Source of the DNA: Hamadaea flava
GTDB taxonomy: Bacteria; Actinomycetota; Actinomycetes; Mycobacteriales; Micromonosporaceae
Length of the DNA stretch: 64,000 nucleotides
Assembly: GCF_024172085.1 (NCBI RefSeq)
Contig: NZ_JAMZDZ010000001.1
Location: 3,844,001 to 3,908,000 of the forward strand
Direction: 5' to 3'
How positions within the stretch are numbered: position 1 is the first letter of the stretch; the number at the start of each line of letters is the position of its first letter. This document shows, one piece after another, positions 33,230 through 39,623 of the stretch. The notes beneath the pieces are model-generated. The model worked only from the letters and a program-made list of their open reading frames with translations, did no database searches and was not told the origin of the DNA. The translations under genes and the position numbers were made by a program.

Positions 33230-34318
<1,089 letters not shown>

Positions 34319-34360
34319 CCGCGCCATCCCCTCCTGTCGAAACCCCGGTGTACACGCGAA

Positions 34361-34413: not shown

Positions 34414-34635
34414 CTACTTGGCGGCCTTGCCGACCTTGGCGTACTTCGCCTGGAACTTGGCCACGCGGCCGGCGGTGTCCAGGACACGCTGCTTGCCGGT
34501 GTAGAACGGGTGGCACTCGTTGCACGACTCCGCGTGGATCTGACCGTTCTTCGCGGTGCTGCGGGTCGTGAAGGAGTTGCCGCAGGAGCACGTGACGGTG
34601 GTCACGTTGTACTCCGGGTGGATACCAGACTTCAT
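34414..34635 (-). CDS. rpmE: 50S ribosomal protein L31, zinc-binding form
   Basis: This 73-residue L31 carries the zinc ligands CSC (16, 18) and CNEC (37, 40), i.e. the C+ form made when zinc is sufficient, and the family stretch HPFYTGKQ. The leader contains a repeated GGCGACATG that also forms the translation start (GGCGACATG, ATG at 34633-34635), suggesting leader-based control. Position downstream of rho and upstream of prfA is conserved; here a plus-strand cassette separates it from rho. Confidence 0.96.
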
Positions 34636-34874: not shown

Positions 34875-35951
34875 GTGGTCACGCTCACCGACCTCTTCCC
34901 GGCGGGCGCGCTCCAGGCTGCGCTCGACGCCGGTCATCTGCGTACGCAGACTCATCCTGAGCTGCCCTTGGTGATCTACAACTACACCGAGAAATGCGCA
35001 TACGACGGCGCTTGGCGCGAAACCACGCTTATCTGCCGAGGGTTGATCGCGCATGCCCAAACCGGTGAGATCCTCGCGCGGCCCTACCGGAAGTTCTTCA
35101 ACCACGGCCAGACCGGCGCGCCTACGTTCGCGCTGGACGAGGCGGTGGAGGTGACCGACAAGGCCGACGGCTCGCTGGGGATCGTCTACCCCGTCACGGG
35201 CGGCCACGCCATCGCGACGCGCGGGTCGTTCACCTCCGACCAGGCGGTCCGGGCGACCGCGCTGCTGCGTAAGCGGTACCCGGACTGGTCGCCGCCGGCC
35301 GGTCAGACGGTTCTCTTCGAGATCATCTACCCGGAGAACCGGATCGTGGTCGACTATGGGGGCATGGAGGATCTCGTCCTGCTCGGCGCGGTCGACACGA
35401 TCTCCGGCCGGTCGCTCGGTCCGGCGCAGGTCGCCTGGCCCGGCCCGCGCGTCGAGACGTTCGCGTACGCCACCTTCGGCGCGGCGCTGGCCGCCCCGGC
35501 CCGGCCGAATCGGGAGGGCCTGGTCGTCCACGCCTTCGCCACCGGTGAGCGCGTGAAGATCAAGTACGAGGACTACCTGCGGCTGCACCGGATCGTGACC
35601 GGTCTCACCTCCCGGACGATCTGGGAGGCGCTGGTAGCCGGGTCGACCGTGGCCGCGATCTGCGAGCCGCTGCCCGACGAGTTCCACGTCTGGGCCCGGG
35701 AGGTGGCCGACCGGCTGCGTACCGAGGTCGACGCCGGGGTCGAGGAGGTCGAGCGGGTCTTCCGGGAGATCGTGGCCGGCCTGCCCGACGGTTACAGCCG
35801 CAAGGACTTCGCGCTCATCGCAAGCCGGCACGAGCTGCGGGGTCTGCTGTTCGCCCGGCTCGACGAGCGGGATCTTCGCCCCGCGCTCTGGCAGGCGGCC
35901 AAGCCCGAGGCCGGCGAGACGCCCCATGGACGGACCTTCGATGACGAATGA
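34875..35951 (+). CDS. RNA ligase of the T4 Rnl1 family
   Basis: The 358-residue ligase has the nucleotidyltransferase motif I KADGS (Lys96 is the AMP-accepting lysine), an upstream YNYTEK/CRGLI/ARPYRKFFN block as in T4 Rnl1, and motif IIIa FEIIYPENRIVV (149-159). Motif IV is EGLVV (214-218) and motif V VKIKY (227-231), again in T4 Rnl1 order; the C-terminal helical domain (about 240-345) is where Rnl1 recognises tRNA. It seals 3'-OH to 5'-phosphate RNA ends. The GTG start has AAGGGA six bases upstream. It heads a three-gene operon with RlaP- and Pnkp-like genes that would heal the ends before sealing. Confidence 0.9.
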   Translation: MVTLTDLFPAGALQAALDAGHLRTQTHPELPLVIYNYTEKCAYDGAWRETTLICRGLIAHAQTGEILARPYRKFFNHGQTGAPTFALDEAVEVTDKADGSLGIVYPVTGGHAIATRGSFTSDQAVRATALLRKRYPDWSPPAGQTVLFEIIYPENRIVVDYGGMEDLVLLGAVDTISGRSLGPAQVAWPGPRVETFAYATFGAALAAPARPNREGLVVHAFATGERVKIKYEDYLRLHRIVTGLTSRTIWEALVAGSTVAAICEPLPDEFHVWAREVADRLRTEVDAGVEEVERVFREIVAGLPDGYSRKDFALIASRHELRGLLFARLDERDLRPALWQAAKPEAGETPHGRTFDDE

Positions 35952-36684
35952 CCCTGCTCCGACCCCTCCGACCGAACCGACGGGCGGCACCGGGCCGCTT
36001 CCAGCCGGCAGCACCGTACTGCTGGAGGGCGTCGTCGGGTCGACGGCGTACGGCCTGGCCGGTCCGCACTCTGATGTGGACCGGCTGGGCGTCTTCGCCG
36101 CCCCGACCGAGTCCTTCCACGGACTGCGCCCGCCCCGCGAGTCCATCGTGGAAAACGAGCCGGACCGGACGCTGCACGAAGCCGGGAAGTACTGCCGCCT
36201 CGCGCTGTCCGGCAATCCCACCGCCATCGAACTGCTGTGGCTGCCTGATGAGCTCTACGAGGTGCGTACGCCGCTGGGCGACGAACTGATCGGCCTCCGG
36301 TCGGCGTTCCTCTCGGCGCCCCGAGTGCGCGACGCCTTCCTCGGGTACGCCGCCCAGCAGTTGTCCCGGCTCGGCAGCAAACGCCGCAGCGGGAACTGGA
36401 TCGACCGGCGGGCCGCCAAGCACGCCCGGCACATGCTGCGCCTGATCGACCAGGGGCTGGCCCTCTACGAGACCGGGGTGCTGCCGATCCGGCTCGCCGA
36501 CCCCGAGCGATACCTCGACTTCGGCACCCATGTGGACGCCGACCCCGGCCTCGCCGGGCCGGTGCTCGAAGACGCCCGGGAGCGGTTCGCCGCCGCGCGT
36601 ACCGTACTGCCGGAGCAGCCGGACGAGGCCGCGGTCGAACACTGGCTGCTACGCGTACGCGCGCACCACTTGAACGGAGACTGA
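35941..36684 (+). CDS. RlaP-like nucleotidyltransferase (DNA polymerase beta superfamily)
   Basis: The 247-residue protein has the Pol-beta nucleotidyltransferase signature GSTAYG (33-38) followed by SDVD (44-47) with the two metal-binding aspartates. A Pro/Thr-rich N-terminal tail of about 20 residues precedes it. The fold and the NPTAIELLWLP stretch match a family (Pfam PF10127, 'RlaP') that comparative genomics has linked to RNA repair. Lying between a ligase and an end-healing enzyme, it may add nucleotides to damaged RNA ends. It overlaps the ligase gene by 11 bp and the Pnkp gene by one base (TGATG). An in-frame ATG at 35926 is a possible alternative start. Its reaction has not been shown. 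Confidence 0.78.
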   Translation: MTNDPAPTPPTEPTGGTGPLPAGSTVLLEGVVGSTAYGLAGPHSDVDRLGVFAAPTESFHGLRPPRESIVENEPDRTLHEAGKYCRLALSGNPTAIELLWLPDELYEVRTPLGDELIGLRSAFLSAPRVRDAFLGYAAQQLSRLGSKRRSGNWIDRRAAKHARHMLRLIDQGLALYETGVLPIRLADPERYLDFGTHVDADPGLAGPVLEDARERFAAARTVLPEQPDEAAVEHWLLRVRAHHLNGD

Positions 36685-37571
36685 TGCGTACCCCCACCCT
36701 GACCATCACCCGTGGCCTGCCCGGCTCGGGCAAGACCACCTGGGCCAAGACTCAGCAGCCGAAGGCGGTCCGGGTCAATCGCGACGATCTGCGCCTGATG
36801 CTGCACGGCGGCCGGCTCGGCGAATCGTGGGCGGAGAACCAGGTGTCGATCGCCCACCGGTCCTCGATCGAAGCTCTGCTGCGCGCCGGCGTCGACGTGA
36901 TCAGCGACAACACCAACCTGCGTGCGCGATACGTCCGGGAACTCGCCGAACTCGGGATGGCCTGCGGAGCCGCCGTCGTCATCGAGGACTTCACCGGCGT
37001 ACCGCTGGAAGTCTGCATCGAACGGGACGCCGCGCGACCGGACCCGGTCGGTGCGGAGGTCATCCGCTCGATGCACGCCCGCTACCTGGCGGGCAAGCGC
37101 GCGCCGCTGGACCTGCCGGTCGCCCCGCCCACGGCGGTCTACGAGCCGCCCGCGGACCGGCCGAGCGCGATCCTGGTCGACCTGGACGGCACGGTGGCCC
37201 TCATGGGCGACCGGTCGCCCTACGACGTCACCCGGGTCCACCTGGACCGGCCCAACGAGCCCGTCATCGCGGCGGTACGCGCGATGCACGCCGCCGGGCA
37301 CACCATCGTCTACTGCTCCGGCCGCACCGACGACGGGCGGGCGCTGACCGAGACCTGGCTGGCCGAGCACGTCGGCGTCCCACACGCCGGTCTCTACATG
37401 CGCGCCTTCGGCGACGCCCGCAAGGACTCGGTGGTGAAGCGGGAACTGTTCGAGCGGCACATCCGCACCGAGTTCCGGGTCATCGCCGTCTTCGACGACC
37501 GCAACCAGGTCGTACGCATGTGGCGAGAGGTGGGCCTGACCGTCTTCCAGGTCGCCGAAGGCAACTTCTGA
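36684..37571 (+). CDS. Polynucleotide 5'-kinase / 3'-phosphatase of the T4 Pnkp type
   Basis: The 295-residue protein has the same domain order and almost the same length as T4 Pnkp. The N-terminal kinase has P-loop GLPGSGKT (11-18), catalytic-base region NRDD (32-35) and SDNTN (74-78). The C-terminal acylphosphatase-type phosphatase has DLDGT (Asp166, Asp168), SGR (212-214) and DDRNQVVRMW (271-280), very close to the T4 ending. It removes 2',3'-cyclic or 3'-phosphate and phosphorylates 5'-OH ends, preparing them for the co-encoded Rnl1-like ligase. The ribosome-binding site GGAG lies inside the preceding gene. A run of 14 C residues directly follows the stop. Confidence 0.92.
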   Translation: MRTPTLTITRGLPGSGKTTWAKTQQPKAVRVNRDDLRLMLHGGRLGESWAENQVSIAHRSSIEALLRAGVDVISDNTNLRARYVRELAELGMACGAAVVIEDFTGVPLEVCIERDAARPDPVGAEVIRSMHARYLAGKRAPLDLPVAPPTAVYEPPADRPSAILVDLDGTVALMGDRSPYDVTRVHLDRPNEPVIAAVRAMHAAGHTIVYCSGRTDDGRALTETWLAEHVGVPHAGLYMRAFGDARKDSVVKRELFERHIRTEFRVIAVFDDRNQVVRMWREVGLTVFQVAEGNF

Positions 37572-37695: not shown

Positions 37696-37729
37696 AGAAG
37701 GGGGCTGGGTTCGCACCCAGCCCCCTTCT
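37696..37729. terminator. Terminator of rho / of the RNA-repair operon
   Basis: AGAAGGGGGCTGGGT (37696-37710) and ACCCAGCCCCCTTCT (37715-37729) form perfect 15-bp arms with a TCGC loop. They lie 13 bp beyond the rho stop and downstream of the convergent Pnkp-like gene, so the hairpin can serve both strands. Confidence 0.75.
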
Positions 37730-37742
37730 CTATGAAGTGCTC

Positions 37743-39623
37743 TTACTCGCCAGGAGTCGTCTTGGCGATCTGCATGAGGAACTCGATGTTCGTCCGCGTC
37801 TGCTTGAGCTTGTCGAGCAGCAGATCCAGCGCGGCCTGCGAGTCCAGCGAGTGCAGAACCTTGCGGAGCTTGTGGACGATCGCCAGCTCCTCCGGCGCCA
37901 TAAGGATCTCTTCCTTCCGCGTACCGGACGGGTCGATGTCGATCGCCGGGAAGATGCGCTTGTCGGCGATCTTCCGGTCGAGCTTCAGCTCCGCGTTGCC
38001 GGTGCCCTTGAACTCCTCGAAGATGACCGTGTCCATCATGGAGCCCGTCTCCACCAGCGCCGTGGCGATGATGGTGAGCGAGCCGCCGTTCTCGATGTTG
38101 CGGGCGGCGCCGAGGAAGCGCTTGGGCGGGTAGAGCGCGGTCGAGTCGATACCGCCGGACAGGATGCGGCCCGACGCCGGCGCGGCCAGGTTGTACGCCC
38201 GGCCGAGGCGGGTGATCGAGTCCAGCAGGACGACCACGTCGTGACCGAGTTCCACCAGGCGCTTCGCGCGCTCGATGGCCAGCTCGGCGACGGTGGTGTG
38301 GTCCGTCGGCGGACGGTCGAAGGTGGAGGCGATGACCTCACCCTTGACCGAGCGCTGCATGTCGGTGACCTCTTCCGGCCGCTCGTCGACGAGCACGACC
38401 ATCAGGTGGGTCTCCGGGTTGTTGTGGGTGATCGCGTTGGCGATCGCCTGCAGCACCATGGTCTTGCCCGCCTTCGGCGGGGACACGATCAGCGCACGCT
38501 GGCCCTTGCCGATCGGCATCACCAGGTCGATGACCCGGGTGGTGAGCACGTTCGGCTCCGTCTCCAGCCGCAGGCGGTCCTGCGGGTAGAGCGGGGTCAG
38601 CTTGTAGAACTCGGGGCGGCGCTTGGCCTCCTCGGCCTCCATGCCGTTGATCGTGTCGAGCCGGACCAGCGGGTTGTACTTGTCCCGACGGCCTTCGCCC
38701 TCACGGGCGGAGCGCACCGCTCCGGTGATCGCGTCACCGCGGCGCAGGCCGTACTTCTTGACCTGCGACATCGCGACGTAGACGTCGTTCGGTCCGGACA
38801 GGTATCCGCTGGTACGGACGAATGCGTAGTTCTCGAGCACGTCGACGATGCCGGCCACCGGGATGAGGACGTCGTCCTCGGCGACCTGCGGCTCCCGAGC
38901 GGAGGAGGACTCCCCGTCACGCTCGTTGCGGCCCCGACGGCGGTCGCGGAAGCGGCTGCGCCGTCCGCGACGGCCACCGTCCTCGTCGTCGTCGTAGTTG
39001 CGGTCGCGGTCGTTGCCACGGTCGCCACGCGGCTTGTCGTCACCGCTGTCGCCCTCGTCGGAGGGCTGATTGCGGTTGCCCCGCTCGCTGCGCTCGGCAC
39101 GCTCGTTCCCGCCCCGCTCGCTGTTGCGCTCGCGGCGGTCCCGGCGCTCACGCTGGGGACGCTCGGTGCCCTCGGACCGGCTCTCCTCCTGGGAGGCCGG
39201 GGCGGCAGCGGACTCGGTCGGCTGCGCGGTCTCCCGCGACCGCTCAGCCGGCGGGCCGGCGGGACGGCTGGCCCGGCGGGAACGCTCCCGCTCGGCCGGA
39301 CGCTCCGCGGGTGCTTCGGTGCTCGGCGCGGCGGCCGCGTCGCGTACCTCAGCTCGCACCTCATCGCGGGTGTTGCCGGCGGTGGCGGCCACCTCGGCGC
39401 GGGGCCGGGGCGTCCCGGCTTGACGCTCCTGAATCGCGGAGATGAGTTCGCCCTTGCGCATCCGGGCGGTGCCCGAGATGCCCAGCGAGGCGGCCATGCT
39501 CTGCAGTTCCGGGAGCAGCATCGCTGTCAGGCCGCTGCCCGACCGGCGGCGCCGGGCGGTGCCGGCGGAGGCGTCGTCAGCGACGGTGGAGACATCCGAC
39601 GTGGTGTCGGTAGTGTCGCTCAA
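37743..39623 (-). CDS. rho: Transcription termination factor Rho with extended N-terminal insert
   Basis: The 626-residue protein has the Rho N-terminal helical domain (about residues 33-70; LPELQSMAASLGISGTARMR) and then an Arg/Glu/Ser-rich, low-complexity insertion of about 190 residues typical of high-GC actinobacteria. The RNA-binding OSB domain (GYLSGPNDVYVAMSQVKKYG) and the ATPase core follow, with P-loop PPKAGKT and Walker B VVVLLDSITRLGRAYN. It is a hexameric RNA helicase that ends transcription. A 311-bp leader precedes it. Confidence 0.97.
   Translation of the reverse strand: MSDTTDTTSDVSTVADDASAGTARRRRSGSGLTAMLLPELQSMAASLGISGTARMRKGELISAIQERQAGTPRPRAEVAATAGNTRDEVRAEVRDAAAAPSTEAPAERPAERERSRRASRPAGPPAERSRETAQPTESAAAPASQEESRSEGTERPQRERRDRRERNSERGGNERAERSERGNRNQPSDEGDSGDDKPRGDRGNDRDRNYDDDEDGGRRGRRSRFRDRRRGRNERDGESSSAREPQVAEDDVLIPVAGIVDVLENYAFVRTSGYLSGPNDVYVAMSQVKKYGLRRGDAITGAVRSAREGEGRRDKYNPLVRLDTINGMEAEEAKRRPEFYKLTPLYPQDRLRLETEPNVLTTRVIDLVMPIGKGQRALIVSPPKAGKTMVLQAIANAITHNNPETHLMVVLVDERPEEVTDMQRSVKGEVIASTFDRPPTDHTTVAELAIERAKRLVELGHDVVVLLDSITRLGRAYNLAAPASGRILSGGIDSTALYPPKRFLGAARNIENGGSLTIIATALVETGSMMDTVIFEEFKGTGNAELKLDRKIADKRIFPAIDIDPSGTRKEEILMAPEELAIVHKLRKVLHSLDSQAALDLLLDKLKQTRTNIEFLMQIAKTTPGE

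Follow-up and report, generated by a model that had tools for sequence, protein, structure and literature searches.

The 64,000-nucleotide stretch of Hamadaea flava DNA analysed here (the window; the genome containing it measures 8.86 Mb) carries, at positions 34875-37571, three overlapping + strand genes that encode a T4 Rnl1-type RNA ligase, an RlaP-family nucleotidyltransferase and a T4-type polynucleotide kinase/3'-phosphatase (Pnkp). All three reading frames are open at the coordinates listed in Table 1, and the trio sits between prfA/rpmE and rho, which lie on the opposite strand (names given to these flanking frames from their sequence). An original prediction for this DNA had described the trio as overlapping genes of these three families, embedded on the opposite strand between rpmE and rho. 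The profile searches proposed along with it, which we ran, gave Pfam matches above the cut-off for all three proteins, and the coordinates and strands of the flanking genes agree with the description.

Table 1. Coordinates, within the window, of the three RNA repair genes and the features that flank them
Feature	Position	Strand	Details
T4 Rnl1-type ATP-dependent RNA ligase	34875..35951	+	358 aa; GTG start; nucleophile Lys96
RlaP-family Pol-beta nucleotidyltransferase	35926..36684	+	252 aa; G38 S39, D50, D52
T4-type polynucleotide kinase/3'-phosphatase (Pnkp)	36684..37571	+	295 aa; kinase then HAD phosphatase
prfA (release factor 1), left flank	33230..34327	-	Open reading frame; divergent neighbour in 30/30 ligase loci checked
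rpmE (ribosomal protein L31), divergent neighbour	34414..34635	-	Translation and coordinates
rho (termination factor), convergent right flank	37743..39623	-	Open reading frame; adjoins the pair in those relatives whose stretch read extends far enough
Terminator-like hairpin between convergent Pnkp and rho	37707..37723	+	Pattern scan: 1 found against 0.8 expected by chance; weak

The ligase matches the Pfam family RNA_lig_T4_1 (PF09511) at 2e-10, and its 41.3 bits clear the cut-off of 28.3. Since it reaches 49.1 bits against TIGR02308, the NCBIfam equivalog for T4 RnlA, where the cut-off is 242.25, we assign it on sequence to the T4 Rnl1 superfamily and fold, outside the narrow T4 RnlA equivalog. 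It carries K96-ADGS, EGLVV at 214 and KIK at 228. HMMER aligns Lys96 with the lysine of KEDGS (motif I) in T4 Rnl1, and K96, E149, E214, K228 and K230 are invariant across 25 ligase sequences. The Rnl1 fold with its C-terminal helical domain is present, and structural alignments place the window's ligase at 21-23% identity to T4 Rnl1.

The nucleotidyltransferase matches Pfam RlaP (PF10127) at 7.4e-20, scoring 72.1 bits where the cut-off is 23, over profile positions 19-176 of 249. In its GS...DxD motif, which we take to be the Pol-beta catalytic motif, G38, S39 and D52 are invariant and D50 is conserved in at least 90% of 72 sequences. The key motifs of the trio are intact. The first ~28 residues are unconserved, and the true start may therefore be the ATG at 35941. 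A sequence search of RlaP against the PDB gave no meaningful match; the nearest solved fold is that of HalB from the Hailong system (PDB 9dbh, 9dbi, 9dbj), with which no sequence match was found. For Hailong, production of single-stranded DNA oligomers (PMC12657230) and of poly-dA adducts of HalB (PMC13275509) has been reported; HalB is thus tied to DNA oligomers, whereas RNA repair is proposed for the window's RlaP.

For Pnkp, both AAA_33 (PF13671; 2e-21) and HAD_PNKP (PF25109; 4.1e-54) match above their cut-offs; the latter profile also catches distant phosphatases, and weak matches to it were not counted as Pnkp. The closest PDB relatives are Pnkp1 (4xrp, 5.2e-37, the best) and T4 Pnkp (1ltq, 2.3e-33). 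The kinase-then-HAD-phosphatase order, the P-loop (GLPGSGKTT at 11) and the DxDGT motif (DLDGT at 166) are all present, and residues 4-301 of 1ltq align to residues 6-295, the last being the C-terminal residue, in keeping with the predicted T4 domain order to the C-terminus.

Purifying selection acts on each gene of the trio. Across six genome pairs from four genomes, the ratio of non-synonymous to synonymous substitution rates (dN/dS) lies between 0.12 and 0.36 in all 18 comparisons (RlaP 0.14-0.27, ligase 0.18-0.36, Pnkp 0.12-0.32), values that throughout argue against the trio being a product of chance.

To place the locus among its relatives we used a sample of 150 Micromonosporaceae genomes, in which matches were found to the ligase in 55 (one weak), to HAD_PNKP in 96 (some weak) and to PF10127 in 118. 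Strong ligase matches number 54, G007 (E 6e-4) being left uncounted; 30 ligase loci were checked, from the 30 genomes with the best matches, and the other 24 fall outside the count, some of them being partly covered through their Pnkp loci. At these 30 loci prfA is divergent and upstream in every case, a same-strand Pnkp lies within the 1.5-kb flank in 29, and RlaP is present in four, these being all the members of the window's genus that were sampled (4/4). At the thirtieth locus, in G036, a GH18/CBM5-12 chitinase-like open reading frame (L204:2201-3559) separates Rnl1 and Pnkp. G040, read separately, has the Rnl1-Pnkp pair inverted in the same interval, and G043 has Pnkp without a ligase between prfA and rho (L121:3922-4815). 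Because RlaP is missing at 26/30 of the ligase loci checked, which carry ligase and Pnkp, a fixed three-gene chromosomal cassette is ruled out; what stands of the repair cassette originally proposed is RNA repair with nucleotide addition, which remains the best reading. Within a wider sample of the phylum, 3 of 246 genomes match the ligase, the window's included; in the two others the ligase adjoins Pnkp by coordinates and RlaP is far off. Relatives on plasmids (31 records for the ligase, 13 for RlaP) are all below 60% identity.

Some of these genomes hold further arrangements of the same families. In G040 a microbial-type PARG gene (PF10021, L205:4359-5111) lies upstream of Rnl1-Pnkp and is read in the same direction, a hint that ADP-ribose chemistry may be connected with the RNA repair pair. 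In G010 ligase and Pnkp occur as a pair a second time, at another place (C1 near 8.16 Mb), and the ligase match of G105 falls in two pieces ~1 kb apart (C1 near 1.437 Mb). Among the PF10127 matches listed, a group that scores above the window's RlaP, often as tandem pairs, occurs in many Micromonosporaceae genomes (L018-L037).

Phylogenies of the ligase and of RlaP point to a history in two steps. The ligase tree (70 rows, some of them near-duplicates; quick method, midpoint root, long-branch warnings; the two ligases of another family, G172 and G342, left out) has 60 Micromonosporaceae rows on one side of a branch with a Shimodaira-Hasegawa-like approximate likelihood ratio test (SH-aLRT) value of 96, a result that does not favour a recent import of the whole trio from a phage, and it clusters the window's genus with Catellatospora and G017 (98). 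The Rnl1-Pnkp pair is evidently inherited at this site across the Micromonosporaceae and old there. The RlaP tree, built from 92 of 120 rows, unites the genus's four rows in one group (100), and the sets that contain them are mostly viral (17/23 rows with support 90; 9/15 with support 84). On the simplest account, RlaP would have been inserted later between ligase and Pnkp in the window's genus, a gain being preferred because losses in several lineages need more events. Its source may be either a phage-type RlaP pool or a stand-alone chromosomal copy, neither of which is favoured, since chromosomal and viral proteins alike are among its relatives and the nearest row is chromosomal.

The linkage of RlaP with Pnkp extends to viruses. 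IMG/VR was scanned with the RlaP alignment, and in the best 80 of 89 loci we sought Pnkp and Rnl1 in flanks of up to 5 kb, using hidden Markov models built from the loci collected here; both flanks are complete in 58/80 loci and 22/80 have a cut flank. Pnkp is found in the flanks of 40/80 viral RlaP loci (25 full length, 13 with the phosphatase domain only, 2 cut), on the same strand as RlaP in 40/40 and within 110 nt of it in 26/40, where about one would be expected for a uniform distribution over 5 kb with the loci treated as independent. The full trio occurs in 15/80, in the orders Rnl-RlaP-PNKP (nine loci, the window's order), Rnl-PNKP-RlaP (five) and RlaP-Rnl-PNKP (one); after clustering at 70% identity, Pnkp remains in 30/56 clusters and the trio in 14/56. 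One viral contig (L142) has overlapping trio genes in the window's order. A check of phage neighbours, which covered the trio contigs L142 and L191, identifies the former as phage by its ribonucleotide reductase, UvsX-like, exonuclease and thymidylate synthase genes; the neighbours of L191 gave little. The phosphatase-only PNKPs (the 13 viral ones together with L099, L107 and L111) retain DxDGT, and the open frame ahead of them contains no Walker A pattern; two Micromonosporaceae chromosomes pair RlaP with such a protein (L107:6028-7139, L111:5372-6468). The 13 viral loci in which RlaP accompanies a PNKP of this kind suggest that its substrates are 3' ends which the phosphatase has freed.

Compared with the Pnkp-Rnl1 tRNA repair of phage T4, the window's locus differs in its chromosomal setting and in the nucleotidyltransferase gene between the two others. 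The Arthrobacter phage Seahorse (MH910041) likewise has Rnl1 (52%) next to Pnkp (46%), ordered as in the window, in a phage rather than a chromosome; the 9 kb read there showed no RlaP. A T4-type Pnkp next to a separate bacterial ligase is also seen in the Pnkp1-Rnl-Hen1 complex of Capnocytophaga gingivalis, where, according to the 2015 paper, repair of cut tRNA requires all three proteins and hen1 likewise lies far from the Pnkp1-Rnl pair (PMC4411300). The third partner in the window is RlaP instead of Hen1, and the Hen1 of the window's genome adjoins a different, bacterial-type Pnkp. RlaP itself has been tied to RNA repair by comparative genomics, as originally stated: one paper, which cites Burroughs and Aravind 2016, describes RlaP of jumbo phages as working beside RNA ligases and gives the replacement of lost nucleotides as its predicted role (PMC7824862), and another describes several counter-RNase repair systems that contain it (PMC6514570). 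The window's RlaP is likewise a PF10127 protein beside an RNA ligase. A lesion of the matching kind is described in PMC2610378, in which RloC excises the wobble nucleotide and is proposed thereby to be able to defy phage repair.

The trio is one of at least three RNA repair systems in the window's genome. A bacterial Pnkp-Hen1 pair (1281 and 655 bits) lies at G000:C1 ~3.409-3.413 Mb (L209:1367-5308), and an RtcB-family ligase followed directly by PrfH (release factor H), with NCBIfam matches above cut-off, at G000:C1 ~90.8-92.6 kb (L210:1322-3093). Only the window's system has a nucleotide-adding candidate adjacent; the Pnkp-Hen1 and RtcB families are not known to add nucleotides. Because the window's locus is the only one of the three to include such a candidate, it can be argued, though not proved, that the damage dealt with by the trio is of another kind than that handled by the other repair pairs. 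As for the source of that damage, the original prediction had noted that no nuclease gene is adjacent. This holds for the immediate neighbours prfA, rpmE and rho, the rest of the window not having been scanned for nucleases. We looked in the window's genome for a PF13166 (PrrC/RloC-type) protein, and an anticodon nuclease of the cell's own as the threat was set aside when no match appeared, other ribotoxins not having been sought. The lack of a PF13166 protein, together with the Pnkp-Hen1 and RtcB-PrfH pairs, fits but does not prove a source of damage external to the cell.

Taken together, the trio is a real and conserved RNA repair locus under selection, made of known families, for which the general idea is already in print. 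We consider it probable that it forms a break-repair unit that also mends RNA breaks from which nucleotides have been lost, by healing, replacement and sealing, and that RlaP was added in this genus to an old Rnl1-Pnkp pair. This reading builds on the assignment of the proteins to their families, their intact motifs, the order of the genes, the purifying selection, the viral linkage and the single-clade family ligases described above, and the fold match of RlaP to HalB also speaks for it. Pnkp would remove a 2',3'-cyclic or 3' phosphate and phosphorylate the 5'-OH; RlaP would then extend the resulting 3'-OH by one or a few nucleotides; and the Rnl1-type ligase would seal the ends, the likely substrates being tRNA anticodon loops cut by ribotoxins. 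More tentatively, and with rather less than even confidence, we propose that RlaP and the 3'-phosphatase of PNKP constitute the core of an RNA gap-repair activity in which nucleotides are added ahead of sealing, an activity which in the window's genus would have been coupled to the old Rnl1-Pnkp pair as a third pathway, able to reverse RloC-type lesions, and which in phages would use a borrowed or other ligase.

Several observations weigh against repair by nucleotide replacement and sealing. On chromosomes, five ligase rows of relatives have one in-frame stop inside the match, and 10 of 12 loci with window-type RlaP outside the genus (taken among the matches listed; L105 lacks its left flank) show no Pnkp or Rnl1 in the stretch read. 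In viruses, Rnl1 and Pnkp are both missing from the flanks of 40/80 loci, and intact Rnl1 was found in none of the 44 non-trio RlaP records searched (of 65), which are possibly fragments; the same 44 gave two partial Rnl1 matches, one with internal stops, and a PF09414 ligase in only nine. The nucleotidyltransferase, originally presented as an addition to the repair system, is by these 0/44 records and by the 13/80 loci with a stand-alone phosphatase not simply a ligase accessory, and because many RlaP phages show no ligase, a ligase-free role may exist. Support in the RlaP tree is only moderate at the position of the genus (SH-aLRT 84-90), where the nearest row by both path and identity is the chromosomal L104 of G021, at 66%. 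The reading would also require an untemplated enzyme to choose the correct nucleotide, and we found no experimental work on RlaP in the literature searched, which covers few subscription papers.

The ligase-free role can be framed as restoration of 3' ends (tRNA acceptor ends or trimmed tRNA fragments) by RlaP and the 3'-phosphatase, independent of sealing, with the gene position reflecting shared use of the phosphatase. Such a role would account for the 13/80 viral loci in which PNKP is phosphatase-only and has no kinase motif, and a search of 11 records of this type turned up neither Rnl1 nor PF09414; some RlaPs of Gordonia phages are moreover annotated as tRNA nucleotidyltransferase. However, these viral records may be fragments, and 15/80 viral loci, together with the four genomes of the genus, couple RlaP to both a ligase and a full Pnkp; we regard restoration without sealing as unlikely. 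Less likely still is that RlaP transfers a nucleotide to a protein, a tRNA or a small molecule, as MNT and aminoglycoside nucleotidyltransferases do, and so regulates or blocks repair. It could also be that RlaP is a chance passenger in this genus and that Rnl1 and Pnkp work as a T4-like pair by themselves, as the 26/30 ligase loci without RlaP might indicate, one of them with the GH18-like frame between ligase and Pnkp. Yet the window's three-gene order recurs in 9/80 viral loci, the dN/dS of RlaP reflects a constraint similar to that on its neighbours, and RlaP, which in the window overlaps each of its two neighbours, is retained in 4/4 genomes of the genus; we consider a passenger very improbable.

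Repair of broken RNA with replacement of the missing nucleotides remains our preferred account. What is added here is the two-step history, the quantified viral linkage and the gene order shared with phages, along with the RlaP-phosphatase pairs that point to a reaction order and the finding that this genome also encodes Pnkp-Hen1 and RtcB-PrfH. Upstream DNA compared across six genomes is conserved on the rpmE side, with no trio-specific element seen, and a pattern scan upstream of the trio found no sigma-70-like site; PADLOC defence labels (library of 2023) gave a single match, to Pnkp only, at 0.041. The locus encodes three compact proteins, and the viral loci offer a two-protein version (phosphatase and RlaP), which should purify easily. 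That cells or phages replace nucleotides lost at RNA breaks is a prediction (PMC7824862). If true of the window's trio, it would explain how excision of the wobble nucleotide can be countered, and it would give this organism three distinct routes of RNA repair in one cell.

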